A program made the position numbers and the translations under genes. The notes under the pieces are model-generated. The model did no database searches. It saw nothing but the letters and a program-made list of their open reading frames with translations, and was not told where the DNA came from. This document shows positions 2,210 through 63,814 of a stretch of 64,000 bases of DNA, one piece after another; position 1 is the first letter of the stretch; every line of letters starts with the position of its first letter. The DNA is from Phascolomyces articulosus (Eukaryota > Mucoromycota > Mucoromycetes > Mucorales > Lichtheimiaceae). The stretch spans positions 1,550,001 through 1,614,000 of the forward strand of contig JAIXMP010000003.1 in assembly GCA_025677815.1 (NCBI GenBank), written 5' to 3'.

Positions 2210-4060
2210 TCATATGGGAACAGATCCGAATCCGCTACATGATTCAAATTCAATAAGTTTAAGAGCCCATTCTTCTGGAAAACCGAAGAAGAAGGTAGAT
2301 ACCACGTCAATCTCGGCGTACTCCTCTTCTTTATAATAATCGTAGTGTTCTTCTTCGTCTTCTTGTATTGTTATCTGGGAATAGCCATCCATAAATTTGT
2401 CCTGGTAGCGAATACAATTTTCTTGATAATGTTACATCTTCTCTGGACTGTGCACACTCTTGAAATCATAAACAAAGTTTATCAGATTCTGTGCAGTTGG
2501 CGAATCTGAGTTTTTCCAAATTACGAAGACTCTTTAATGTATATACAACAGGATCACTCATGAGAGCCAGACTATGTAAAGATACATCTTTCAGTTCGGG
2601 CAACCATTTAATCAAATCCATTCTACCATAGTCAACCTTGAACTCTCTTAAATACGCCCTATGGTAGCCTGGTACTGTCAACTTGGGGTATATGTCTACA
2701 GATATACCATTAATGAATTGGCGCCAATTGGATTCGCAGTTAGGCATTCCCTCTTCGTATCCTTCATTACTAATATGTGAATGCTTGTCAAAGCTAATCT
2801 TCAATGTCTCCAAAGTGTCTCAGCTTTTGTTGAAAAATGGGACAATGTACACCAGGTCTGAACGTAATAAGGATATGCTTTAGGCTAATCAATGTAGTTG
2901 TTGCTGCTGTGAATAATGTTGTAGTTTCCTCTCTAAGTATGTCTTTGGTGATTGAATTGACAATGGGGGAAGCATTAGCGGGTAATAACATGGTTGCATT
3001 TAGGCTTTGAAAGCAGTGTTTTTCAAGTTGTTTCATTGTGGCTTTTATATCATGGCGATGATAATGGCGATAATAGGGGTTACTTGATGTGGATGTACCA
3101 AAAACATGTAGATTGGGAGAGCGTTAAAATATGGCTTCAGTTATTCTTTCATCCAGAGGGTGGCCATATATCATCAACAATTGAAGATTTAGATATTTTG
3201 TGTTTGCTGTTGAACTGTTAAACAGTTTGAACGCATTTGGATTGTAAAATGCATTATCCCTTCCAGATTCGAGGTGCTCTAGTTTTCGCTATGTCGAAAA
3301 TAAGCTGAACAGTGTTGGTGAAATCTTCTGATATCCTCAACACATCAAACAGTTGAAATGATTTTTTGGGAAAGCAATCGATGATCAAAAGAGTCATTAC
3401 TGTCTAATTATGCCCCACTATTGGAACAAGCAGTTTCAGGGAATCTGTATCTATATATGTACGTATCATATAGCCCAAACCCAATAAATGTTAAATATTA
3501 ATATTCTTATATAACTTGTGCTGTATCTTTCTGTTTGATATTATTAAATAACAACGTTTTATTTGTTCATGCCTGCTCCTAATTCTCGAATATGGCTCAG
3601 TTTTGCGTTTTTAATACCGTATGATATTTTTCCTTTAAGAATGTCAGGTATTAGAGAACATGATTGAATCTTGGTAACAGATTGGGCTACTTCAACATAA
3701 TGAATGCTAACGACATTTTGGGTGGTGGTTTGTTCCATGCTGTTGGTGCATCCCAGCGGGCGTATCTCCATCCACCTGGACACACGAATAAACGAAACTC
3801 TCGCCAGATTTTCAAGACAAAGGTACAACAGAGTATTGTCCTTTCGAATTTTTCTGTTTTAATACTTTCAAGATCGCGGCAGATAGTTCAGGTGGAAGGA
3901 TTGCAACAAAGTCGGTTGAATTCTTCTTGCGCTTTCTGATAATTTCCTCCGCCTCTTGGTGTTTTTTGTGTAATGGCAATTTATCCTCTTCGTACTCCAT
4001 AGATCATTCTGACACTGATACGACACTATACTCTTTTTGTTTTTTATCAAATATATCCAT
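2210..4060 (-). pseudogene. Decayed TPR/F-box/LRR gene, copy A
   Basis: Read on the minus strand, broken segments follow the order of the intact gene at 36996-39145. Segments at 4000-3812 match its post-TPR helix and F-box (LPPELSAAIL for LPSEVSIMIF). Segments at 3828-3559 match the end of exon 1 (ARWDG...KLKTG region). Segments at 3036-2794 and 2813-2466 match the LRR half (LEKHCFQSLNATMLLPAN for LEKLELYSLSHLKSLLILPN). 2392-2210 resembles the acidic C-terminal tail. Many stops and frame changes lie between the pieces and most of the N-terminal TPR part is gone. It is non-functional by inspection; edges are approximate. Confidence 0.8.
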
Positions 4061-6894: not shown

Positions 6895-9600
6895 TAAAAT
6901 TTATATTTATTATTGTGGAAGACTGGGTTGACCTGCGCCTATAGGCATGTGGTCGCTTCCTTGCGGTACTTAGTGGTAAAGATTATGTATGAGCAAAAGA
7001 ATATATGGCATCAGCTGAAAAACCCCCCTTTAGGAGGAAAAGCTAAGCTAGTGTGGATAATGTGGTAATGTTACATATGTAAGAGAAATAAAAAGGGAAA
7101 ATAGAAGGTATAATGATTATGAGTGGGAGGAGTGGAAAATATAAATTTATATAGTAACTTGGTTACTTTCTTGAGTTGTATATGATGGGAGTTGTGGTGG
7201 CAGCGGTGGTTCTGCAGGTTCCGGTTCGTCTTCTTCGTAGTCATTTACGGAGTGACTTAATCGGTCGATTTCCCGGAGGGCACGGATTAGTACAAACCAG
7301 TAGTTGATCCACTTTCCAAGTGATAAGTCGACTTCTGAGCGCGGGAGATGATTTATAACGTAGTCGAGTGGTTTTAGTTCTCGTTGGAGTTCAGGAATTG
7401 TACCAAATGTTGTTTTCAACTCATCAAGTACTTCTTCCATCAAAGGACAACGTGTAAAATGTTCTCTATTTGCTGTTGGATGGCCGCATCTACAATCTTT
7501 CAGAGAGTAGGATGGGAGCCAGTGCATTCTCCATTTGATAAATCTGTGTCGGTCACGTGGAGTAGCAGGAAGATATAGTACTGGGTCGATCATTCTTTTA
7601 TCGCGAAGACAACGGATAGTTTTCTTTTTATCGGCCCGGATTTTATATTCTTCATCTCGTTTTTGGGATATGGCTTGCTTGAGTGAGTACTTTGGTGGGT
7701 TGATTCCATTTTTTAGCTTAGTGTATAGTTGGTAGAATGGATTGTTCGATGTTAGATGCTTCCAATGTTTATCCTTATTTTTGTTCCAGGAAAAGGGTAG
7801 TTCAATGGATCGTGTCAAAGTAGTGGTAGGTAAATTTTGGAGTCGAACAGCAAATTTTAATTGGAGAATACGAGTTCTTGTATGCATCGAGGGTAAGTCT
7901 GCTAGCATCATTGGAACGATGGTTGGAAAATGAGTTGCTGCATTTCGATTAAGAGTCATTTTTATACAACCTTTTTGTGCATTGTCAATTTTATCTTTTA
8001 GTGTAGCAGATAAGACGGTAATGGCTAGACCGTACTCAAGAACTGGTCGAACAAAAGTGCGGTATATTCTTAAAGCAGGCCATAGACCAATTCCGTACTG
8101 ATGGACACCAAGTTGTCGTAGTAACCCCATATTTCCTGTTGCTTTGCTGGTACGTTGATTCACCAATTGCCCGGAACTATTACCATTATGGTCAAAGGGA
8201 ATACCGAGATATTGAAAAGTGTTAACTAAAGGGATTATTTTGTTATACAGTTGATATTGTTGCGATGATGGCTGAGATTGCTGTGGATCGATAATAGCAC
8301 ATTTATCAGGGTGCCATTTATATCCTTGGTCTTTCGAGTGTCGTTCAGCTATTCGTAGTAATCTTTTCATATCTGGAGGAGAGCCTATTAGTGCTACATC
8401 ATCAGCATAGAGACAAGCTGATATTATAAGATTTGATTGATCAGGCCGATTTTTGTCAGGACGTCCATTCTTTCCCCCTGTATATTTCTGTAGTTGGGCT
8501 GATGCTTCTGTTGCTCCATTGGCTGTAGATGTTCGAAGGAATAGTGGCTTTTCACATCGCACATGCATGTTAATACGTAGTCGTCTTGGGAGAGTGTCGA
8601 TAAAGACTGCGTATAATAATGGGCTCAAGATAGAACCTTGTAGTACTCCTTTCTTTGGATGAATGAAGCGGGATTGATAATTTTGTGAAATGTCGGAGAT
8701 GCGTATATCATCAAACATATGGCGGATCATATGAAACAGAGCGCTCGGCAGGTGTTTCTGCAACGTTGACCATATGATACCACGATCTACTGAATCATAT
8801 GCTAATTGATATCGAGAAAAGCAAGAACAGGTGAGTTGTTGTATTGTTGTTGATATTGGCGGATGAGTGTGTGAAGAGAGAAAGCTTGGTCTAATGCACC
8901 GCGATGATGGCGGAAACCTCCTTGAGATATGTCTAGAGCAGGCATTGATTTGAGAAGCTTTGGCAGGAAGCATCGTTCAAGAAGTTTCCTCAGTGTACTT
9001 GTCAGGCTATTTGGTCGGTAATTAGCGGCTACTCCTGGATCCCCTTTTTTGTAGATTGGGACTACTTGTGCTGTTCTCCAGGATAACGGTATCCAAGACC
9101 AATTCCAGCATAGCCGGAAGAATTTGCTTAGGACTTTAGACAAGGGTTGTATAATTGGTTTAAGCATTGCTCCTGTAATATGATCATCACCTGGAGCTTT
9201 GCGTGGTGCCATGTTGCTAATGATAAACTCTATCTCTGGTGCGGGAAATGGATTGTCATTGGTGGGTGGATGGAAGATTTGTTGCTTTATATAAGCAGTT
9301 GATCTTGATTTGTTTCTTTCCATATTTTCTCCACCAAATATTTTGGAAAAGTGAGATATCATTGTTTCTACAGCTTGCTGAGGACCATCAGGGGGCGAGA
9401 ATAGATGAGATGACTCTCTGTTTCGACGCATCCTTTTGATGGTAGCATTTGCTTCGTTGTCTGGGGCATTACCAAGTTTCATGCAAAACTGCTTCCATGT
9501 ACTCCTACGAGTTTTGCTTATTTCTTTGGACAGATATTTGTTTATGTTACTTCTTGGAACAGATATGTTTCTTATATATATATCGAAACAGTACACACAT
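6895..9600 (-). mobile_element. 5'-truncated LINE (non-LTR retrotransposon)
   Basis: A reverse-transcriptase ORF on the minus strand is followed by about 250 bp of noncoding 3' sequence running to about 6895. The element lacks an upstream AP-type endonuclease region, as expected from 5' truncation at insertion; the 5' edge is placed near 9600 where RT-linked coding stops. Its 3' end (about 6915-6975) contains a perfect 10-bp palindrome, GCCTATAGGC, and resembles 57807-57862, so the terminus is shared by another insertion. The edges are estimates and no target-site duplication was confirmed. Confidence 0.8.
7147..9596 (-). pseudogene. LINE reverse transcriptase, one frameshift
   Basis: The N-terminal segment (9596-8802) carries RT finger motifs (PIYKKGDPG, NYRPNSLTS) and stops just after the FLDI start of the catalytic A motif. 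The second segment resumes within a few codons in another frame (LAYDSVDRG). It contains the GVLQGSILSPLLYAVF motif, the catalytic YADDVALIGSP box, and a thumb/connection region with KWHPDKC and FQYLGIPF. A C-terminal Cys/His cluster (CRCGHP...H...C) is typical of LINE ORF2 tails. The single frameshift near 8805-8835, inside the A motif, disables the enzyme. The endonuclease domain is absent. Confidence 0.85.
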
Positions 9601-9864
9601 AAAGAAATTAAGGCACCTATTACTTATTACTAAACAAATCATCTGGGTAAATATTGATTTTATTTAAAGATATAGCATGTCATCATATGAAATAATATCT
9701 TAATGGATGAATAATGTGTATGAAAGCGAATATATTTATAAATATAATAGTAACATAAATAATTATACGTAGTTTATACAGATAATATAATGATTATCAA
9801 TGGGTGCTTAAATATTAATGTTGTTATACTTGGATATATGCATATAATAGGTAATTGTTGATTG

Positions 9865-15286: not shown

Positions 15287-15972
15287 AGTTATTATATATA
15301 CAAATACAAATCACATATCAAATTATACATATATATATATATAAATTTATATATAAAAGGGTTTGAAAAGAAAAAAGATGATGCGAGCTAGTTAGGATTT
15401 TCCATCCAAAATCACAGCACACACACACACATTACATATACAACATAACTTATATACATAAAAAAATTCATCTATCAATCCTATTTAGCTATCATTTTCA
15501 AATTACACTCACGAATTCACATTGTTTTCCCCCCATCCGAACGACACTTATCCCCCCCTTCCTTCCTCCCTCCCTTTCTTGGTTTGACTTGCCAAAAAAG
15601 ATAAAAATAATATGAAATCCTTTTCGTAACCCAAAATTTCGGCTGCGTTGTTGCTCTTCTTCAGGAGTTGTTTCATTTTTATTGTTTTCTCTCTCTCTCT
15701 CTTTTTCTTTCTTTGCTTTTATATATATTTACATTTTCACACACTCTTTTTTACTTTTTTTTATCTCTCAGTTATTTATTGAAAAGCATATTTTAGACTT
15801 ATTTTTGAGAGTTATATATCTATTTGTATGTGTTATTATATTTTGTGTGGGTGTATAGAGATAAATAGATAGGAAAAAAAGAAGCGTATCCTAGTATATG
15901 TATTTACTATTATAAAAACTGATTCAGGGTCACCCTCTATTATTTTATATATAAAGATTTACAAAAAAGAGC
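15287..15972. promoter_or_regulatory. Intergenic region and leader of the Bem2-like gene
   Basis: AT-rich 3' flank of PRPP synthetase followed by a long pyrimidine-rich segment (15500-15730, with CT runs such as CTCTCTCTCTCTTTTTC), typical of fungal promoters and 5' UTRs. No ORF or RNA gene was recognised. Confidence 0.4.
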
Positions 15973-18900
15973 ATGAAATCCAAGAAATCAAAATCTTCGA
16001 CTAGCAACAAATCAGACGAACATCGTACAAGTGCATTATCATTCTTTAAAAACCGTCTCTTTAGTAGCAATGAAAGTTCAAACACAAACAATAATACAGA
16101 GTCATCTCCTTCCACAACGACGACACATACCTCGTCTTCATCGCGTTTTATACTGCATAGATCACCTATATCGATCGATATTCCAAAGTCAGCAGCCATG
16201 ACAGCATCCACAGACTGGTCTGGTACTACGACACATGCCGATCGACCCATGTCTAAATCCTTTGAAGATCCAATGTACCTTGAAGTATCTCATAGTACAA
16301 GTAGTAGTAGTACTAGTAGCAATGCCACATCGACTGTAGCAGCAACAGCAACGGCTGCACGTAAAACACCAAGACCCGTTTCTATGATGGGATTACGACG
16401 TATTACTACAGGGGGTAGTAGTAGTGGTTCTCATTCAACAACGACGACGGATCATAATACAGGTGCTGTTGTCAATAAACGACGTCGACCACCAGATGAA
16501 GATCCTCATCGATCCAGTTTTATTATTATCAAAGAAGGCTTTTTATATAAAAAAGCTGACTTTCGAGCGTTTCACAAACCACATAATCACCGCGGTTGGA
16601 AGCTTTATCGCATTGTTTTACGTGGGCATAAACTTTATCTGTATAAGCTGTCATCTGAATCGCCGCTCCGATCGTTAGTGCCATCACCTAAACATCATCG
16701 GCAGTTACAAACCTCTTTATTTTTGCAACAACAATTACAGCAACAGCAGCAACAGCAAAAAGAGGAATCGATTGTGATCCATAACCCAGCTGATTTATTT
16801 CATGATGAAAAATTACGTGATGGATATATTTATGGTGCTAAGTTCAAGGATCACCAACAACAACAACAACGTTATGTAGCATTATTGATATTTACAAACG
16901 AAATTGTGATTGGTACTTGCATGATGGGTATACAACATCAACAACAGCAACAACCATTGAAATGGAAGGAAATTGATAGAATACCCCTCGATAAACTGCA
17001 GGTGGAAAAACGTGGTAACGAACTTGTCCTCATGATAGATCAACAACCAAAAAAAGAAGAACGAATCTATATTTCATTATCAACAGAAGTCCAATCCGCT
17101 TGGATGAATGCATTTGAATCTCAAGCTGGATTACCAAGAATCAAAATTAGTAAAGAGGACGAAGAGGAACACATGTCTCAAGATGAAAACAGCAAGCATT
17201 CATTACATGTTACCAAGGATACCGATGGACGACGTATTGTATTGGGTGGAACCGTGGAGGCATTGATCCACGAATTGTTGACGTCTGAAGTATTGGACCA
17301 AGAATATATGAATGCCTTTCTATTGACATTTCCAATGTATACCAGCAGTACCACCATCAATACCATCTTGAATACATATATATCCAATACGCCCCAACAA
17401 GTAGCAGATCGTATACTGGATATTTTTCAATTCTATGCCACCCAGTTTATGCAGGACGTAGTGGGTGATGTGGCCAATGGTATAATTTCCATTTTGGAAA
17501 GATTGGAATCCATTGAATCTGTGGATAAGACAGTACGAGAAAAAAGCACGAAGGTCAAGGAATTGGTATTGGCTACCGTCAAACACAATGGCGATGAAGC
17601 AGGTGGTGGCAATGGAAATAATGGTAATCATGTGATTAGTAATGCATTAGCACCACCAACAGATACATCCAATATTTCATCCTCTTCATCTACATCCACA
17701 GCAGCATCAGAAGAAGGTGGGAAGCGAAAGAAAATGGATCGTCTGACTGTGGAAGATATCCCTCGTTTCAACAAACAACGATTCACACCATTTTCATCCA
17801 GTACAACAACACCTCGACAGCAACAATTACAAAGACCTATATCTGTGAATCTATCCAACATGTTGATCACTGGATTAACACCCGGTTTATTCTTGACTAT
17901 TGATCCAGACTCTTTTGCAGAACAAGTCTATTGGTTTCATCGATCTCAACAATGTCAACATGAGTCCACCCTGATCAATCCATTGACCTATGTTCCTCGT
18001 CCACAAACATCACCTCAGGTGGTCAATTCATTGGTATTTACAACAGCATCGCCTCATTTCTTGACGAAATTAATACGGAATCATATTCTTATTGATTCAC
18101 AACAAGGAGGAAGTGGAGATATGGAAATGGAGAATTTGAAATTGAATCGATCCATGCTATTGGAACATTGGATTCGTGTGGGTATTGCATTGACGCAATT
18201 GGGTGATATGACAGGGTGGTGTGCTGTTGCTGTAGCTATTTGTTCATTGGGAGTGATTCGACTCAAAGAATCATGGAAATCAGTCGATCGTTCCTTGGTG
18301 GTTACCGTCACACAGCAATGGGTGGGATTGTTGGCTGATTATGGATTATTTGCACAAGATATGTGGATGGAAGGGTGGGAGAAAACTGTGGCAGTAGATA
18401 CATTTGCTCGTATCATGAACCCACAGCATCGTTCTTTCACAGAACAAGGCCAACAACAACATCCAGGATTACCCTTTTTTGGTACATTACGTCAAGCCGT
18501 GGATCGACTTCGAAAACATCTCAAAGATGAATACAATGGTGAAAAAGGTGTGGTGAATTTTTCCAAATATTGGGGAATTTATCACGCTGTAAGACAAGGT
18601 CTAGATACATGGACAATCATGAATAAAAACACTATGCGACAGATTCAAGAAGAGCAAGAAGGGCAGGTCCCTTCTTTCAAAGTGGTGGGTCCATTACAAG
18701 CCTTTTTTGAACATTCCGTGACAGATTTTATCTCTGTACCTCATGATTTTAAATATTTACAAGAATGTTCATTGGCATGCGAACCGCGGATCTTTGGACA
18801 AAGTTATGATCGACATCGCAAATTTGACTCGTTGCACCATGGTACAGATGTGGCGCCCCCTTCCTCAGCCACATTGACATTTCCAGAGGTTCTAGAAGGC

Positions 18901-21900
18901 TATACGTTATTTCAACATCATTTGGATCATCATGCAACATCACCTCAACGATCTTCTCTTAATCTACGTAAAAAAAAATCGACGCAGAGTATGAAATCGG
19001 AGGATATGCCACATACACCATTGTCGGCTACTAGTGCTCCTTTATCACATCATCCACAACAGCCACATAGTAATAGACCTCCTCCACCTGATCACGCACG
19101 ATCTTCACCTCGTGTCACCCGACGTAAAATGTTCCGACGACGAACGTATAGTTTTCCACCGGGCGGGGCAGGTGTTTCCTCCTCCTCTTCGAGTAGTGCT
19201 ATTGGTAGTATGGGTGGTGCTGATACAGAAACAATCCATAGTTTGACCAGTGTGTCGTCTAGCGGCGGCGGCGGCAACAGCAGCAACAAAAAAAGTGAAG
19301 AGTATTCCGATAGTTATCTCGAATCGCATCATAGCAGAACATGGCTTGGATCACTTATTTCACATCGTCATGGAAGTTATTCTGCCAAAGCAATTTTGGA
19401 TGCTGTTCAACAACAACGCAGGGACATGAAGGGAGGACCCAATGGTGGAGCATCGTTCCCTCATGATTGGATCTTGTTGGTAGAAAATGGGAATTTGGTA
19501 TTGAAAGCATCGACGTTGGTACAAGCCGATGATTCAGTGACGAGAAAACCACTAAAGAAAAGTACATCAAGTGGATTTTTGGTATTAGCGGATAAAGGAA
19601 GTTCAGGCATTCGCTCCCGATCAAGTACCACCATAAGTATGACGGCCGCAGCACCAACAGCCAATGAAGCGATTCAAAAGAAGGAGGAAGAAGGAGAAAA
19701 GGTGCCTTTTGGATCATCAGATAATATTAACAAAGAGGGTGATAAAAATAACAGCGATTCGAGTACACCTATTTTTGTCAATGTCAAAGCAGGTCGTTTG
19801 GAACGATTGGTGGAAGTATTAGTGGGTGGTGTGTCTCGATATAACAAAGAAATGCGTGAACAATGGCATTTATCCAATCAATTAATGGATCAAGAATTCA
19901 ATGCACAACAACATCATCTTGCTTTGGACGAAGAAGAATACGTCAATGCCTTTTTTGTCACCTATCGTAGTTTTTGTTCTGTGGTGGAATTACTGGAATT
20001 ATTGCGTGAAATTTTTACAGGTGCTATTGCCGCTGGACAATTGATCAAACAACAAAAGACCAATGTACTTGAAAGTGTTTTTCAAACAGCAACGGCAGTA
20101 AAGACCAAGGAGGATGAAAATTCAGCAACGTCAACGGTGGTAAAAATGAAGGCAGAAGATTTTGATTGGCGAGTCGTGGTATCAATCCAACTTCGCGTGG
20201 TGAATTTAATGCTTCATTGGATGGAAGAGCACTTTTATGATTTTGTGGATGAAATTGAAATTCTTAATCATATTGGAAGGTTTCTTCAACAAGCCCAAGA
20301 TGCATTGGAAGCTTGGCGGACAGTCATGCAACAATCCACCATCACCACAGATCAACAGGCATCTTTGGCGGCTGCACGACATATTGATCGGCAATTGGAA
20401 GAACTTCGAAAACAATTCATCCACAAGATATTATCCCCAAGTTATGATTTAAAAGCTATTGATTATGATACTGGATGTAGTCGAAAAGTGGACGAGTTGT
20501 ACAAACAATTGACGAGTGGAACACAAGGTTTTCGTACAGCGATTAAACAAGGAACAAGAAAATCTATGGCCTTTTCTCTTTCAACGCAACCTACCGAAGA
20601 AGAAAAAAAATCAATCCCTCATTCGAAAATGCAAACACAACAACAACAACATGGTTTGGTGGATCAGAAACCTGCATCACTCCTTTTGAAACAAGCAGAT
20701 CAATGTGTACGACAATTATTTGCTTCTGTGACCCTGCAGGATTGGATTCAAACGTTTGATGTATTCGAGGCACAGTCGAGTGATTTATATGCATGGTTAC
20801 CTTCCCACAAAGCCTCACAAACCCCTTCCATGTCAATGACACTGTCACCTGTACGGGATGCCCCTAGTGCTCAGCCCACAGACTACCATATTTCACAAGA
20901 TGATGTCATGATTTCAGATGTGTTTACTGCTATCGAAGGTGCCCGTCGGTCAATTGTATCACCTTCTGCTTTTTCTGCGGATGATTTGCTCTTAGCATTC
21001 CCAAGTTCGATTCAATATTTATACTGTATGCATTTTATTATCCGAAGTTGGGTCATTCATGAGATCACCAGTCGTCACATTGATTTTCAAACGCGTGTGC
21101 ATCGGATCGACAAGTTTTTACAAATGGTTGTTCTGAGTAAATCAGCAACAGAACAGATGCTCTTGTTTCCTGAATTGAAAGATGTGGAGGATAGGCCAAG
21201 ACGCGTGCCTGGGTTTGTGGAATATGCCATTGCAAGTGCTTTGATTAGTCCTGAAGTACGATTGTTTTCAAAAGCTTGGATACATGTTTCGCATCGTTAT
21301 GGATCACAACAACATTCAAATCAGCAACAGCAACATCAGCCAGAAACATTAGAATGTTTACTCAGCCATGTACAACGGTCGATCCATAATAACAACAATA
21401 AAGCCGATACTATGGTACTGGTCCCGAGTGTCGGGTGGGTTTTTGATAGAATGTTGGAATTATGTGCAGCTGTTCCAGACACCTATAATCACAAGGAACA
21501 CATGATCAACTTTGATAAACGGCGCTATGTGTTTCACTTTTTACAATTGGTTATGAATGCTCAAATGGATCTTGAAGAACAACAGCAACAACAACAAGAT
21601 ATTGATGAAGAGTATCTTTCATTTATTATTTGTCCTGATCGTACAAAATCAACTTGGAAAGAATTCAAGGATTATGCCACTAAGGAAAATAAAAAAGAAG
21701 GAGGGATTCCTGGCACCACAGGAAGTGGTAATAGTAGTGGTGGCTCATCACTTTCTTCCACTATTCGTGGCACATCCAATAAGGGTCATCATGGTGTATT
21801 TGGAAAATTGGTGGTTGAACAACAAGAAAAATTAAAACGAGATATTAAAGAACGTGACCGAATCGATAAGGAGTGGCGTGATTTACAACATAAACTACAG

Positions 21901-23327
21901 AAACGACAAAATGAACAAGCTCGGTATTTGGAAAAACAAGAACGGAAAGGTCACCATCAACAACCTCCTTTACCCATATTCAATTCCTTGTTTCGTGGGT
22001 TACGTCCAACCTCTTTATCCAATCATTCTTCTTCTACTTCCACCACTGGATCCTTGTCGCCTATATCACCTACCACCACTACCACAACAAGTGATCCTTC
22101 ATTTTCTGTACACTTTTATCAAACAGCCAAAGCATCCACAGTGATTAATTTGATACATGCTACAACTTCTGTTGCCAGTGCATATACAAAACGAGATCAT
22201 GTGTTTCGTATCGTCACAGAAGAAGGAGGTCAATATTTATTTCAAGCCAGTCATTGGGAAGAAATGCACGATTGGATACAACATATTAATAATGCGGCGC
22301 GTGAAGGAGCCGTCAAACGACGTAGTGTGCTGGCTTCGGATGAACAAGAAAAACGCAGCAGTCGATTTAATGAAGAAGATCCCCTTTTATTAATGAATAA
22401 AAGTAGTGGAACGTCAGATGCAGCTCACACAACATCCACGATGAACACAAGGAAGTCTGTTTATGGTGTAGACTTGGTTCATTTGATGGAAGATGGCTCG
22501 GTGCCACTTTTAGTGGAAAAGTGTATTGCGGAAATCGAAAAACGAGGTTTAGAAGAAGTTGGGATCTACCGCACTGCTGGCACTGGTTCGGTCGTAGAAC
22601 AACTTAAAGAAGCGTTCAATTCGGATATGAAGAAAGTGAATCTTGGAGATCCTCAATGGGCTGATATTAATGTAGTGGCGGATGCTTTTAAACAATTCTT
22701 GCGTAATATACCCAGTTCTTTGATGACACATATTTATTATGATCAATTTATCCTTGCAGCAGGTAAAAAAAAAAGGAAAAAAGGGGATAATGTTTTATGT
22801 CTATTTTATCCGGGTATTATAAGATGGTTTTAGGATAGAATTCACTTAAATATTATTTGAAATAGCATCTGAAGACCATGATCAACGGGTTTACCTGATC
22901 AAGCAAGTGATTCAAAAACTACCAGACCCTAATTATACCCTACTCAAACGATTAATTGAGCATTTTGTCATGTAAATAATTATCATCATCATTAGAAGCG
23001 GCTTTACCCAATTTAGTCCTTGTTTTTATTTTTTGTGTTGTTATTGACGAAAAAAAAGAACCTTTTACTCATCTTGTATGTATATATAGTGTTACGGATT
23101 TTGAAGCAACCAATCACATGTATGCAACCAATCTAGCTATTGTGTTCGGACCGACCTTGTTACAGCCAGCTCCAGGTCCAGCCTCATTTGCAACCACGAT
23201 GTCTAATTTAGGACATCATCAAACGATTGTTAAATATCTTATATTACATTTTCATTATTTCTTTGATATTGAAGAACAAGAAGAAGAGTCTGTGACGACT
23301 GATGATGTGGTTGTAGTAGAAGAATGA
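15973..23327 (+). CDS. Bem2-like RasGEF/PH/RhoGAP protein
   Basis: Predicted 2,377 aa in three exons: 15973-22762, 22866-22971, 23090-23327. Order of parts: Ser/Thr-rich N terminus; PH-like region (about 183-376); RasGEF N-terminal module (about 424-540, GGTVEALIHELLTSEVLDQE); RasGEF-like catalytic fold (about 633-975); a second RasGEF-N module (about 1268-1500, EEYVNAFFVTYRSF) with a second GEF-like segment (about 1572-1776); a PH domain (about 2043-2110); and a C-terminal RhoGAP domain with the arginine finger in VGIYRTAG (Arg about 2200), finishing in the NLAIVFGPTLL motif. This layout matches yeast Bem2/Ipl2, a Rho GTPase-activating protein for bud growth and cytoskeleton polarity. Poly-Gln and poly-Ser tracts fill the linkers. 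Whether the GEF modules are active is not clear from sequence. Confidence 0.9.
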
Positions 23328-32715: not shown

Positions 32716-34028
32716 CCCAAGAAACACAAAAACGCATAAGTTATCAAAACATCTCTAGTCAACTCTTTTTTCTGGTTTTACTCTTCTCCATTAAATCCAA
32801 ATGGATCCATTATTACAAGAACCTCGTTGCAGGACTAATATTACCCACCAGGTTATTTTCTATTAGACGAGAAAAAGCGAATCGAAGATAGTTATCAGCT
32901 TACTTGTTACTTATTTTTTATACAATACCCACAACGAGGGAGAGATTGACAAGACACGTCAACTCACTGATAATGTAATCAAGATGATGTATCATTATAA
33001 ATTGAAATTCTACAGGCTTCATGGAGAATTTTTTGAAGCACAAGGCCATTTTAGAGTTGCCATAAAAGTGTGCGATGATGATGTTGTCAGTAGAGTGGAT
33101 CACGAAGAGGATAAACGGACTTTACACAAATATCACCAAGAAATGGAGGAAATTATTAGGATAATTCATTGAGTTTGTTGCAATCCTTCCACCTGAAATA
33201 CCTGCCACGATCTTTGAAAGCATTAAGACATAAAAGTTCGAAAATATAATCCTCCATTGTACCTTTGACTCGAAGCGTTGACGCGAAATCAGAGGCTTGG
33301 AGATACGCTCGATGGGACGATCCAAAAGGTTGGGATGAACCATTATGCCATATGTCTATAGCATTCACCAAGTTGAAAGAAGTGGCCCAATTTTTTTTTA
33401 CCAGATTGAATCATGAATTTGGATGCCTGGTACTGTGAAGGAAAAATATCATAAAATTTTAAAAAATGCTATTCGAGAATTAAAATCAAGTATGGAAAAA
33501 TAAACAAACAAAAAGATACGACACAAACTATATAAGAATATTTATTTTTAACGTAGGTTATGTGATATGTATAAAGATATGGCTACCTCAACAAAACTGC
33601 TTATTCCAAAAGTGGGACTAAGTTTGACAACATTGGCTCTTATAGTCGATTGCTTTCCCAAAAAGTCATTTGAATTACTTGACGTGAAGAAGATTTTAGA
33701 AAACTTAGCCAACATCGTTCGTCTTATTTTCGGCATGGATGATACTAGATGATTTGAGGATAATTGCCCATACAATACAAATGTAATCAAGTTATTTAAC
33801 AGTGCAACAACAAACACAATATATTCAAAACTTCAGTTGTTGATGATATATGGCTATCTACTTGACGACAGAGTAACTTAAGTAATATTTCGGCATCCTC
33901 CCAATCTACGTATTTTTGGTACACCCATTTCAAGTTGTTGCTCTCGTCCTAAGTATGACGCCATCACCGTAATGTTGTAAGAAGAACCACTATGGAGCAC
34001 CTCTCTCTTTTACTTATTACTCATTACT

Positions 34029-58351: not shown

Positions 58352-60178
58352 TTATGGCAGTTTCAATTCGTCTTTCAGAAAAATAAATATTACATCCTCT
58401 GCAAACTCCCCGGCCACAGCAAGATGACGAATAAATTTTTGATGCTTCTCCCTTCTGACAAGAGCACCTATAGCCCAAACGCCGGAATTGGGAATAATAG
58501 CATTTAACGTTTCCAATTTTAATTTTTCCAATTTATCATTGTCTACAATTCCACCTAGCATCATTCTCGTGTTTTGATTGCTATTGTTGCGGGTGTAGGA
58601 TTCATCGATTTCAGTATACTCACCATAATGAGCTTTATTGTAAATAATCCATTCGATTGAAGAGTCCATTCGATCTGCATTTCTGATGACTTTTTTAAAT
58701 CCTAACCAATCGATAATACTTGTGTTGATTTCAACACCTCTTAAGGAATGTTCAGTAGTATTCAATATTTCTAACAGCCCATGTGAAATCTCCTTTGTAA
58801 GACAATGAAGAAAGGCAATATGTTGTATCCCGTTTTTCCCACTGTAATTACTTTCTAAAAGTCGTTTAAATGCTGCTGTATCGTCGAACGATAATTCTGA
58901 AGTTAGAACAAGTCGTCGTAGTGCTTTTTTTTCTGACAATGCATCCAGAATAAAACCTGGTATAGGTGCATGATCGTAGGCAATCGAGCAATCCATAAGA
59001 TTAGGACAATGACGACGAAGCATGGTTGCAAATTGACGTTCTTTTGTAACAGGAATTTCGCAACGAAGTCGTTGTAAATTACTAAACGTAGTTGACAAAA
59101 TAAGATTCCACTGTGTCGCGTTCATAATAGGATCGGATAGTCTATCAAACCGATATTTTGGAATATTTACATAGTACACGAATTCTTGAAGAGAATGTGC
59201 ATTAGGAATGATTAAAGTGCTGATATCGTATTCAGTATAGTCGATCACACCCCTCCTATTAAAGTCTTCAGGCATTATTTGCATAGCCACTGATTGTATA
59301 TTTTGTTGCTGCTCATGCCGAAGCAAATCATGCTTCATAGAATAAGTATTTGTAATTAAGAAACGTCGATGAAAATTCCCATTGAAATTTCTATCAAATA
59401 AAGGTAAATCAAGATTAATTCTGACCAATTTCAGATTTGGATAACGCTCGATGATTCGGTTTAATATAGGCGGGCTACAACGTGAAACACAAAGATAACG
59501 AACAGCTGGGCATAGTCGTAAAATGCTCAATAAGTGTTCTGTCTCATAATGCTGATTATTATCACCAGATACAAGTTTTAATATAGTGAGGTACCGGTGT
59601 TGAAATGGCCTAGTGATGGGTATCGCAGATAGATTGGTAAAAAGTTCAATGGGTGAATAATGTTTTAGTTCCATATGCGTCAAATTCGGAAACGTTTCTA
59701 GGATTATCAATGCTGGGAGTACTTTTAAAAACCGTAAGTTGATAAAACTGGTATCCATCTGACTATGATAAGCTTTTTTTACACATTAGAAATGAAATAT
59801 AGGATCGTTAAGCAACTAGTGTTTTTCAATACTGTCCCTAAAATTGTTGACCCTACCTCGTTTAATGTCATATGGGTCAATGTAATGATCTACTCGATAT
59901 TCAATAAATGATATAATACCAAAAATAGATTTGCAGGCACTGTTATGATAATAGAGGCTTTTGACATGCTTTCTAATATTTGGAATCACAAGCCAGCCTG
60001 CTCCATTTTCTTGGTATAATTCGAATGATTGCCACAATTGATCACATTCAGTAATCCGATGGTGCCATGTTGGTGAAACGATGGTAGCAGCAGCTAATTC
60101 TTCGGTAGAAAAATTAGAAAAAATAAGAGCTAGTGTTTCTTGAGGTAAATGAGCAATGGGGTCCACATTGTGAATCAT
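58352..60178 (-). CDS. F-box/LRR protein, family 2
   Basis: The first segment (60178 to about 59840) starts MIHNVDPIAHLPQETLALIF and shows a clear F-box: LPQETLALIFSNFSTEELAA...SPTWHHRI...LW. The second segment (about 59755-58352, 468 codons) is an LRR-like solenoid with repeated LxxLxL units (FPNLTHMELKHYS, CPAVRYLCVSRCS, YPNLKLVRINLDLPLF, CPNLMDCSIAYDHAPI). The two are in different contexts separated by about 60-90 bases with a stop. An intron from a GT near 59846 to the CAG before 59756 would join them, but its donor is weak, so the link is inferred. It is a probable SCF substrate receptor, distinct from the TPR-containing family at 2-7 and 33-39 kb because it lacks a TPR region. Confidence 0.75.
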
Positions 60179-60651
60179 GTGTGTTTAGTCCTTCAGTAGA
60201 ATAACTCTCACGCAAAAAGTAAAAGTTGTTTCTTATTGGGAAGTATGCAAAGTCAAAGCGCGTAACCAATTAAGGAAGCTTGTAAAACTGAATTAGGACT
60301 CTATCATAAACTAATGATAATACCCTTCTCTAAGGATACCAATGAGCATAACCAAAGGTCCTGTCTCAACTATTCATAATATAAAATACGTAACTACAGT
60401 AAACCCCCATAGTGTAAATGAATTGTGTATATATACATGTAAAAATAAAGAGCTTATTCAAAAAACAGTCTCTGTAAAAAATCTATATAGAAATACTTAT
60501 TATTCATATGCATTAAACAAAGTCACTCATAGAATCTACGGAAATTCCTTTATATTTAATGATCATAAATATCATTTTTTTTAGGATCATAACAATCATG
60601 ACAACTTTCTAATAATGAATGACCAGATTCTATAGAGTATCAAAATTTATA

Positions 60652-61194: not shown

Positions 61195-61590
61195 ATCCAA
61201 GACGCGTCCCACCCGTCTTAATAATGAAATGGAGTTAGATACTCCCCGTTGCTCTACCTGTGATAACTTTGGCCATAGTCGTCGCGCCCATTCTGATTGT
61301 CCAATGAATCCTACTAATACCAGTCAGAATAACAAGATTGACAATACTACTGCTATTGAAAGCATATATTCTTTTAAATAAATATGAGGGTTCAACAAAC
61401 AAGTAATGCTATCGATGCAACTATATTACGCGATTTTGCCTCATATTTATTACGTATTGGTAATGGTCATGGACATATTATCCCTGGTAGTTTATGTTAT
61501 TTTTATTCTATGATGGATGAGGGCTTAGTTGCTTATTATATATTATGGATAACAGAGTCAGGTCTTCTTATACAATTATTTCTTTATTGA
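61195..61590 (+). pseudogene. Helitron-like remnant (zinc knuckle and helicase-leader motifs)
   Basis: 61231-61320 reads CSTCDNFGHSRRAHSDCP, a Cys/His knuckle (C-x2-C-x4-H...C) of a type that accompanies Helitron-like proteins in fungi. In another frame, 61384-61500 reads TILRDFASYLLRIGNGHGHI, which resembles the F-a-x-[WYF]-LL-x-IGnG motif upstream of the Pif1-type helicase of Helitron Rep proteins. The two are separated by a stop and a frame change, and no further helicase motif is found. The family assignment is inference from these two short motifs. Confidence 0.4.
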
Positions 61591-62262
61591 GGATGATATT
61601 AATATGTGATCTATAGGATCGGGTGCAAGAATATGGCGCATCATTTGATCCTTTCGTTTGGGCTTTATTGTGTACATCGTTATGCGATTTGACATAACTT
61701 CCTTTTTAAAATTGAAGGATTTGGATTTCCTTATTTGGGCATATTCTTTGGGATGAGCCCTTATATGATCAGATATATATTTTATAATGGAGTTATTTTA
61801 TTATGTAGAATACGACAGTAGTGTAACTTTGTGTATGTTAGTTTACTACCCTTTTCTATTACCTGTCTAATTCGTTGGCAATAGATGGCATATAAATATT
61901 TTAGAAACAACAAAAAACTGCTCTATATAATATTATGTTAGAACTCTTTACGCAACGTAGGAGGATCGCGATATAGTGCTAATGGCTGTACAAATGTCAT
62001 TACTTTTACTCTCAAGAGATATACTCAGGGTTTTTGTTTAGAGAGTTTTTTTAGTACCTATATTTTACTAAAAACACAAAACGTTGTGTTGGAGATGTTT
62101 CTTGTGATATATGAATGCAAAAATATTCTTATTTTCTGAAAAGATTTGCCTCTTTGTTTGTAACAATATATGAATAAAGTTTAGTTGTTAGAAAGATCAA
62201 TGGAAAATGTCTGGTTATGATGACCGCTTGGTTTCCTGATAATCAAAGCAAAGAGGAAAAGT
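61591..62262. other. AT-rich flank upstream of the small peptide ORF
   Basis: Continuation of the relic region without further recognisable coding segments; AT-rich. It provides the upstream region of the prepropeptide-like ORF. Confidence 0.35.
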
Positions 62263-62270
62263 TATAAAAA
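62263..62270 (+). promoter_or_regulatory. TATA-box candidate
   Basis: TATAAAAA followed by GG, 93 bases before the ATG of the small secreted-peptide ORF, a usual fungal spacing. No other TATAAAA-type box lies between it and the ATG. Confidence 0.45.
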
Positions 62271-62362
62271 GGCTGTTTTTCAAGGCTTGTTGAAAATTAA
62301 ACACAATAACAACGACGACAGTTACAAGTCCTTATTAAAACAAGAAATCCATATATACCATT

Positions 62363-62506
62363 ATGCATACTTTTACTTTTACCACTTTACTTGCTGTTGT
62401 CTTAGCCCTTTTGGCAATCTCTTCTGGTATTGCTCATGCTGTTCAAGACGAAACCGGAGTAGCCGAGGAGAAAAGATGTGGATTTAACTCTGGTGATTGC
62501 ATGTAG
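62363..62506 (+). CDS. Putative secreted prepropeptide with 9-residue Cys peptide
   Basis: A 47-codon ORF with a strikingly organised product. Residues 1-26 form a classical signal peptide: MHTFTFTT, a hydrophobic core LLAVVLALLAI, then SSGIAHA with an A-x-A cleavage motif. Residues 27-38 (VQDETGVAEEKR) are an acidic pro-segment ending in Lys-Arg, the Kex2-type processing site. The predicted product is CGFNSGDCM, nine residues with cysteines at 1 and 8 that could form a disulfide ring, followed directly by the stop. A TATA candidate lies 93 bp upstream. The layout resembles fungal pheromone or other Kex2-processed peptide precursors. I know no named homologue and cannot assign a function. A chance ORF is the main alternative. 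Confidence 0.6.
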   Translation: MHTFTFTTLLAVVLALLAISSGIAHAVQDETGVAEEKRCGFNSGDCM

Positions 62507-62869
62507 AAAAACAGCTTTATAATTTTATACATTGTGCCATTCTTTTCTGCGCACGTACAAATCATTTCGGTTTGACCGTTAAATTGTTATTTGTACAAGC
62601 CGTTATAGTTGTCATTATTAGCTAGTACACAGTAATAATAAACAATTTTCTCTTGTCGTCTTGTGTATGATACAAATAAACTCTTTAAAAAAAGGATAAC
62701 AATATTTTCCTTACATAAAATTATAAAATGTACATGCACCATCATATACAATACAATGAACATGTAGTAAATAATATAAATCTTTTAAATCGTCGTAAAC
62801 AGTGATGATGATCTCAAAAAAAAAGACACAAGCTTGATTGAAAAACAGTAATGGCTATAACATTATTAA
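62507..62869. other. 3' flank of the small peptide ORF
   Basis: AT-rich sequence with no further ORF. It may contain the 3' UTR of the peptide transcript (AATAAA occurs near 62638). Confidence 0.4.
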
Positions 62870-63814
62870 TATCATTTAAATCCTGCCATATCAACTGAAG
62901 AGTAACCATAGGTCAGAATAAAGCGCTGTAAAGCAGTTTTTTTTTTTTTTTTTTTTTTACAAAGCATCGATGACAACGCCTGGAACAGGAGCACAGGCAT
63001 AGGGAATGGAACAATCTTTCAGTGTAGTAGGACAATGATGACAAATCATGGTTGCAAATGCATGTTCTTTTGTAAATGGAATTGCAAAACTAAGTCTTTG
63101 TAAATTATTGAACGTAGTTGATAATGTATGATCCCAGTATAGCACCCTTCACCGTGTTGTTCGCTTCATCGTATCCTAAAGTTGGAATGGTGGCATAAAG
63201 TATAAATTCTTGGTGGGAATGCGCGCTCGAGACAATCCTAGAGCTAATACTGTATCCAGCATAGTTATCTAAATCTTCCGAAAATATCTGGATAGCAATT
63301 GATCACATACATGCCTTGTTGAATCGAATGATACGCTGTGGGATTGGTGGTTTCTTCCAATAAGAGGCGCTCTTGAAGTGTTAGGAGACGAGCATATTCG
63401 TCAATCTCACGTACATCAAGATTAATCGCAACAACTTCCAGGTTCGGGAAACATTCAATAGCTTGTAATATAATGATACTACATATTGAAACAGAAAGAC
63501 AACGAGTAGTAGGACATAGACGTAGAATGTCCAATATTGGTATAGCTTCTAAGAATCGATACTTGAGATAACGGGTATTCCTTCGACGTCGATAAACTTA
63601 TTTATACAAGACATATCAGAAAGGACATAAATTATTGGATGACCCGACGCGTTTGTCTCGCAAAATAAGCAATAGCCTTTCTGTTATTTTGCACCTCGCT
63701 CCATATTGAGGATAAAATGGAAGTAACGGCCAGTACTTCAGTTGTAAATGTTGAAAAAACTATTAACAATAGTTCATGTGGCAATCTTGCAATAAAGTCG
63801 ACTTTGTGATCCAT
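62870..63814 (-). pseudogene. Decayed F-box/LRR family 2 copy G
   Basis: Read on the minus strand it begins MDHKVDFIARLPHELLLIVF, a good F-box start paralogous to MIHNVDPIAHLPQETLALIF, but stops after 60 codons. Further pieces match the LRR part in order: LRLCPTTRCLSVSICS, FPNLEVVAINLDV, EDLDNYAGYS...SAHSHQEFILYA, TTFNNLQRLSFAIPFTKEHAFATM, DCSIPYACAPVPGVVIDAL. At that point the native A-run is expanded to about 22 A (62938-62959 on plus as T), after which the sequence still matches ALRRLVLT...AAFKR until about 62875. Multiple frameshifts make it a pseudogene. Confidence 0.8.

Follow-up and report, generated by a model that had tools for sequence, protein, structure and literature searches.

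This locus raises the question of whether a 47-codon open reading frame (ORF) in the mould Phascolomyces articulosus encodes the precursor of a small secreted peptide or resembles one by chance. The ORF lies in a stretch of 64,000 nucleotides (the window, contig C34:1550001-1614000 of a 47.4-Mb assembly in 110 contigs), and its 47 aa read MHTFTFTTLLAVVLALLAISSGIAHA-VQDETGVAEEKR-CGFNSGDCM-stop. Evidence for and against a functional gene is balanced, and the interpretation of the ORF as a secreted peptide is partly supported. We slightly favor, at a probability of about 0.45, a young, species-restricted family of secreted-peptide genes in P. articulosus over a chance ORF.

The prepropeptide-like layout and its surroundings

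A preliminary description of this DNA had reported a signal-like start with an AHA cleavage motif, an acidic pro-segment ending in Lys-Arg (KR), the nine residues CGFNSGDCM and a stop, preceded by a TATA box. This layout is confirmed, and all of its parts were present in the sequence (Table 1), including the TATA-like box TATAAAAA 100 bp upstream of the ATG, which has an A at position −3. One KR and one core peptide occur in the 47 aa. The ORF also passed a crude signal test (hydrophobicity plus a small-x-small site), which placed the cut at residue 15 and not after AHA.

Table 1. Coordinates of the ORF, its putative parts and the three copies (A, B, C) of the surrounding block; positions are those of the window unless a contig is named.
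Feature	Location	Strand	Observation
47-codon ORF	62363..62506	+	open, same length in all three copies
Putative signal peptide	62363..62440	+	26 aa if cut after AHA; crude heuristic
Putative acidic pro-segment ending Lys-Arg	62441..62476	+	KR in A and B, KT in C
Putative mature peptide	62477..62503	+	A CGFNSGDCM; B CGLDPGDCM; C CGLHWGDCL
Codons 41-43	62483..62491	+	most variable 9-nt window of block, 7/9 columns
TATA-like box TATAAAAA	62263..62270	+	same in copy C; copy B has TATGAAAA
Quieter promoter, 5′ UTR and signal stretch	62231..62440	+	varies less than block remainder
AATAAA, possible poly(A) signal	62637..62642	+	unchanged in 3/3 copies
~1.06-kb block, copy A	61815..62876		3 places in genome, 88-89% identical
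Block copy B	C34:1055261-1056307	-	88-89% identical block
Block copy C	C30:602104-603143	-	88-89% identical block

The ORF had been called unannotated, and it was not found among predicted proteins under a filter of three shared 5-residue words. Protein searches with the ORF or the three-copy alignment, for which at least three shared 5-residue words were needed, returned no homolog. ORFs shorter than 50 codons are rarely predicted, so this absence says little. No Pfam family matched the ORF up to E 0.1, and the window contained no Rfam or tRNA matches. In the literature searched (titles and abstract openings), we found no publication on this peptide, none joining Mucorales, Kex2 and a secreted peptide, and none on the P. 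articulosus genome.

Several other features of this region were recorded. Repeated F-box-type genes, some of them fragmentary, surround the ORF (58352-60184, 62946-63136 and, in locus coordinates, L007:7962-9799), with the F-box confirmed by Pfam at L007:9449-9790. Reverse transcriptase ORFs on the reverse strand at 7147-9623, with RVT_1 in 7150-8976, probably belong to a non-LTR element. Inverted repeats about 30 kb apart (3082-3999 and 33096-33935) are 76-91% alike in pieces, and a single open frame of 2,292 codons at 15955-22833 (+) contains RasGEF, RasGEF_N, PH and RhoGAP domains.

Frequency of the layout by chance

The most serious alternative, which we consider nearly as likely as a gene family, is that this is a chance ORF in a recently duplicated non-coding block. 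Its copies would still be open because the duplication is too young for them to have been broken, and such a layout would be one of tens expected in 47 Mb. The frequency of such layouts was estimated with a crude test (hydrophobic start, small-x-small site, KR and at least two Cys within 30 residues after KR) applied to ATG ORFs of 30-100 aa. In the window 1 of 318 ORFs was positive, and 60 dinucleotide shuffles yielded none; copies A and B pass the test, and copy C, which is without KR, does not. Shuffling another 200-kb stretch of the genome 60 times gave a rate of 0.117 layout ORFs per 200 kb, which scales to ~0.04 per 64 kb and ~28 in the 47.4-Mb genome. This number may be too low, because real DNA was about three times richer in signal-like ORFs than its shuffles (18 vs. 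6.15 in the window, 62 vs. 20.7 in the 200 kb), and the shuffles may thus understate chance. Among 1,018 ORFs in the real 200 kb, which lie on the same contig, 62 were signal-like and nine of these carried 5-30 residues after a KR or RR; none combined KR or RR with two Cys.

Chance assembly of all these parts had been thought unlikely, and for a single window that view stands. It does not extend to the genome as a whole: the layout is unusual for one window, yet across 47.4 Mb further instances would be expected by chance, which favors the chance ORF. What raises this ORF above the genome-wide chance level is the presence of two further full-length open copies.

Three copies of the block and their variation

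Protein searches of the species’ own genome (E ≤ 10) recovered three full-length copies, all without stops; the proteins of B and C both show 81% identity to that of A. The products are MHTFTFTTLLAVVLALLAISSGIAHAVQDETGVAEEKRCGFNSGDCM (A), MHTFTFTSLLAVVLALLTISSGVAHTVQDEPVVAEEKRCGLDPGDCM (B) and MHTFTFTTLLAVVLALLAISSGVTHPVQDETVVAEEKTCGLHWGDCL (C). Weight had been placed on related ORFs that preserve the KR-Cys arrangement; within this genome, all three copies are full-length and open with both Cys intact, while KR is kept in two of three, with KT in copy C. The proposed AHA cleavage motif occurs in A only, the corresponding residues being AHA, AHT and THP in A, B and C, and the TATA-like box is shared by two of the three. 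Between the fixed CG and GDC the copies read FNS (A), LDP (B) and LHW (C). The pattern CG-x3-GDC occurs at eight places in the genome (four for the reversed pattern as a control), three of which are this family. None of the other five has the prepropeptide layout in an open frame, one being in a long low-complexity frame. A 210-bp query covering promoter and signal found no places in the genome beyond the same three.

Copies B and C have ~3.8 kb in common, and A has the block alone; the three copies are separate survivals, not independent origins. In C the ~3.8-kb stretch extends to the last ~60 bp of a HET-domain ORF (PF06985, L009:1696-2961, +) near the copy and takes in the adjoining open frame. 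This frame is matched by an open frame near copy B (L008:3483-3878, +), where no HET domain was shown. With the HET-domain ORF, 138 database proteins were matched at E ≤ 1e-10; the 120 listed come mostly from the same species and its relatives, so the HET-domain family looks expanded. Short pieces of the left flank of copy A (61491-61546 and 61699-61736) match the right flank of copy B in inverted orientation, the first of them also copy C, which would fit an inversion of the block in one lineage.

The three-copy alignment of the block comprised 1,021 ungapped columns, 147 of them variable, and was used to compare the ORF with its flanks. Over its whole length the ORF diverges like the rest of the block (18/141 variable columns vs. 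129/880, P = 0.61). Estimates of dN/dS, made from few changes, were 0.9 (AB), 2.0 (AC) and 0.7 (BC). Variable columns fell 10:3:5 by codon position (chi-square P = 0.11) with no excess at third positions, and judged from these sequences no clear purifying selection on the protein is apparent. Synonymous codon use of A scored −0.057 per codon. This is close to the median of 183 short ORFs (−0.040) and falls below the 5th percentile (−0.044) of a coding reference, 107 pieces from long open frames in the window that were chosen by eye and on which the score was also trained. Codon use of the ORF is not coding-like. These observations, together with the loss of KR in one copy, favor a chance ORF.

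Other features of the alignment argue against a chance ORF. There are no gaps inside the ORF, compared with 13 indel positions elsewhere in the block (62816 and 62817 counted as one). Inside the block of A there are four ATG ORFs of at least 25 aa, and this one alone has stayed intact in B as well as C; two of the remaining three are intact in C alone. Taken by itself, substitution speaks for chance: in 33% of neutral simulations every copy retained its ATG, frame and stop. By simple arithmetic ~2 indels would be expected in the ORF, with a probability of ~0.12 of finding none. The joint chance of three intact ORFs is then ~4% when every indel is counted; it rises to roughly 10%, as an estimate and not a computed value, when the count is limited to frame-breaking indels.

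The distribution of changes in the ORF and just upstream of it also speaks against chance. Codons 41-43 form the most variable 9-nt window among the 1,021 ungapped columns, a level reached by 2.1% of column shuffles, and between the two Cys codons 7 of the 18 columns differ among the copies (P = 0.008). The stretch 62231-62440, which was picked after the variability profile had been seen, is quieter than the rest of the block (17/207 vs. 129/811 variable columns, P = 0.004). The signal part alone has 5 of 78 variable columns (P = 0.04); that all five alter the residue counts, on the other side, against a working gene. A second quiet stretch of the block lies far upstream of the ORF (61855-61934, 2 of 69 ungapped columns variable).

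The ORF could instead be exon 1 of a longer secreted protein, with splicing to the AG ending at 62632 giving 68, 77 and 74 aa. Each copy has a GTRNNN donor overlapping its stop codon (GTAGAA, GTAAAA and GTAACA), the donor GT and acceptor AG are aligned in all three, and this form is the longest among 47 aligned GT-AG combinations. We nevertheless consider it very unlikely, since the three tails terminate at different points, the second exon would cross the shared AATAAA, and the donors are unlike the GTAAGT-like type usual in fungi. All 47 combinations were tried and none was convincing. Least probable of these alternatives is that the block is a piece of a mobile element with the ORF as a by-product: three dispersed copies, the inverted flank matches between A and B and a reverse transcriptase elsewhere in the window would fit such an origin, but only three copies were found, no transposase was seen because no open frame of at least 90 codons was shown in the block, and the ~3.8 kb common to B and C fits a segmental duplication.

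Possible processing and role of the peptide

If the family of secreted-peptide genes is real, the TATA-like box and the AATAAA would together give an mRNA of ~350 nt, and signal peptidase would remove ~26 residues from its product. Kexin would then cut after Lys-Arg in the Golgi in copies A and B. In keeping with the premise of Kex2 processing, taken from fungi in general, this Mucoromycota mold encodes kexin-like proteins with S8 and P domains at two loci; one of these, compared with solved structures, had kexin as its best match (E 3.5e-107). One study describes the P1 residue of Kex2 sites as almost exclusively Arg and an aliphatic residue as preferred at P4 (PMC8528282). Here the P4 residue is Glu, not of the aliphatic type, which, like the incomplete conservation of KR and AHA, counts against a working gene. 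Copy C is not expected to be cut at KT given the P1 preference reported there (PMC8528282). An uncut copy C would yield a product of 21 residues, provided that the signal is cut at the same place. The nine-residue peptide of A and B would be secreted, and its two Cys could close an 8-residue ring by a disulfide.

The layout of a putative signal peptide, a pro-region and KR before a short core resembles that of the KEX2-processed repeat proteins (KEPs), which include the alpha-pheromone precursors of Ascomycota and the precursors of ustiloxin-type RiPPs. Of 39 Mucoromycota strains surveyed, 38 reportedly have KEPs (PMC7329392). A 2019 KEP survey required three or more near-identical repeats with KEX2 sites between them and notes that alpha-pheromone precursors may contain a single peptide (PMC6339444). 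The present ORF differs in having a single core, and a pipeline with that repeat requirement (PMC6339444) would miss it. UstYa (PF11807) had no matches in the P. articulosus genome, and none in the control genomes either. The K2PP effectors of plant-pathogenic fungi (PMC8528282) have a signal peptide and a short pro-domain with a dibasic end followed by the mature part, an arrangement that the putative parts of the ORF resemble. In these effectors the mature part is a folded protein, and here it would be nine residues. We know of no plant association of P. articulosus. The ORF is best placed, in a general sense, as a possible precursor of a kexin-processed secreted peptide.

A pheromone had been among the uses suggested for the peptide, and nothing we found bears on such a function. 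Mating in Mucorales is described as mediated by trisporic acids (PMC3834313). Searches of the genome for STE2 and STE3 (PF02076, PF02116), with introns left out of the model, gave no matches, and the control genomes gave none either. A mating pheromone is the least favored use. The framework of CG and GDC would be kept while the three-residue ring tip diversifies, which suggests a changing partner. Our guess is that such exchange fits a peptide aimed at a competitor, a host or self/non-self recognition better than one aimed at a fixed pheromone receptor. A more ambitious proposal, which we regard as improbable, is that the copies found a previously undescribed family of micro-peptides closed by a disulfide ring. 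Their single-core kexin precursors would be missed by gene callers, and both Cys with the CG and GDC frame would stay fixed while the ring tip diversifies after duplication. On this reading the HET-domain gene near copy C, and the duplicated edge of that neighborhood at copy B, make it conceivable that the peptides act in recognition of self and non-self or of competitors; the proximity of B and C to HET counts as a single association, because the two share one duplication.

Should the ORF prove to be chance, it would illustrate that AT-rich fungal DNA can produce a convincing prepropeptide layout at random, and that such a layout can outlast one round of duplication. If the gene family is real, early-diverging fungi have single-core kexin precursors of fewer than 50 codons whose ring tip can diversify, and repeat-based surveys and gene callers pass over such precursors.
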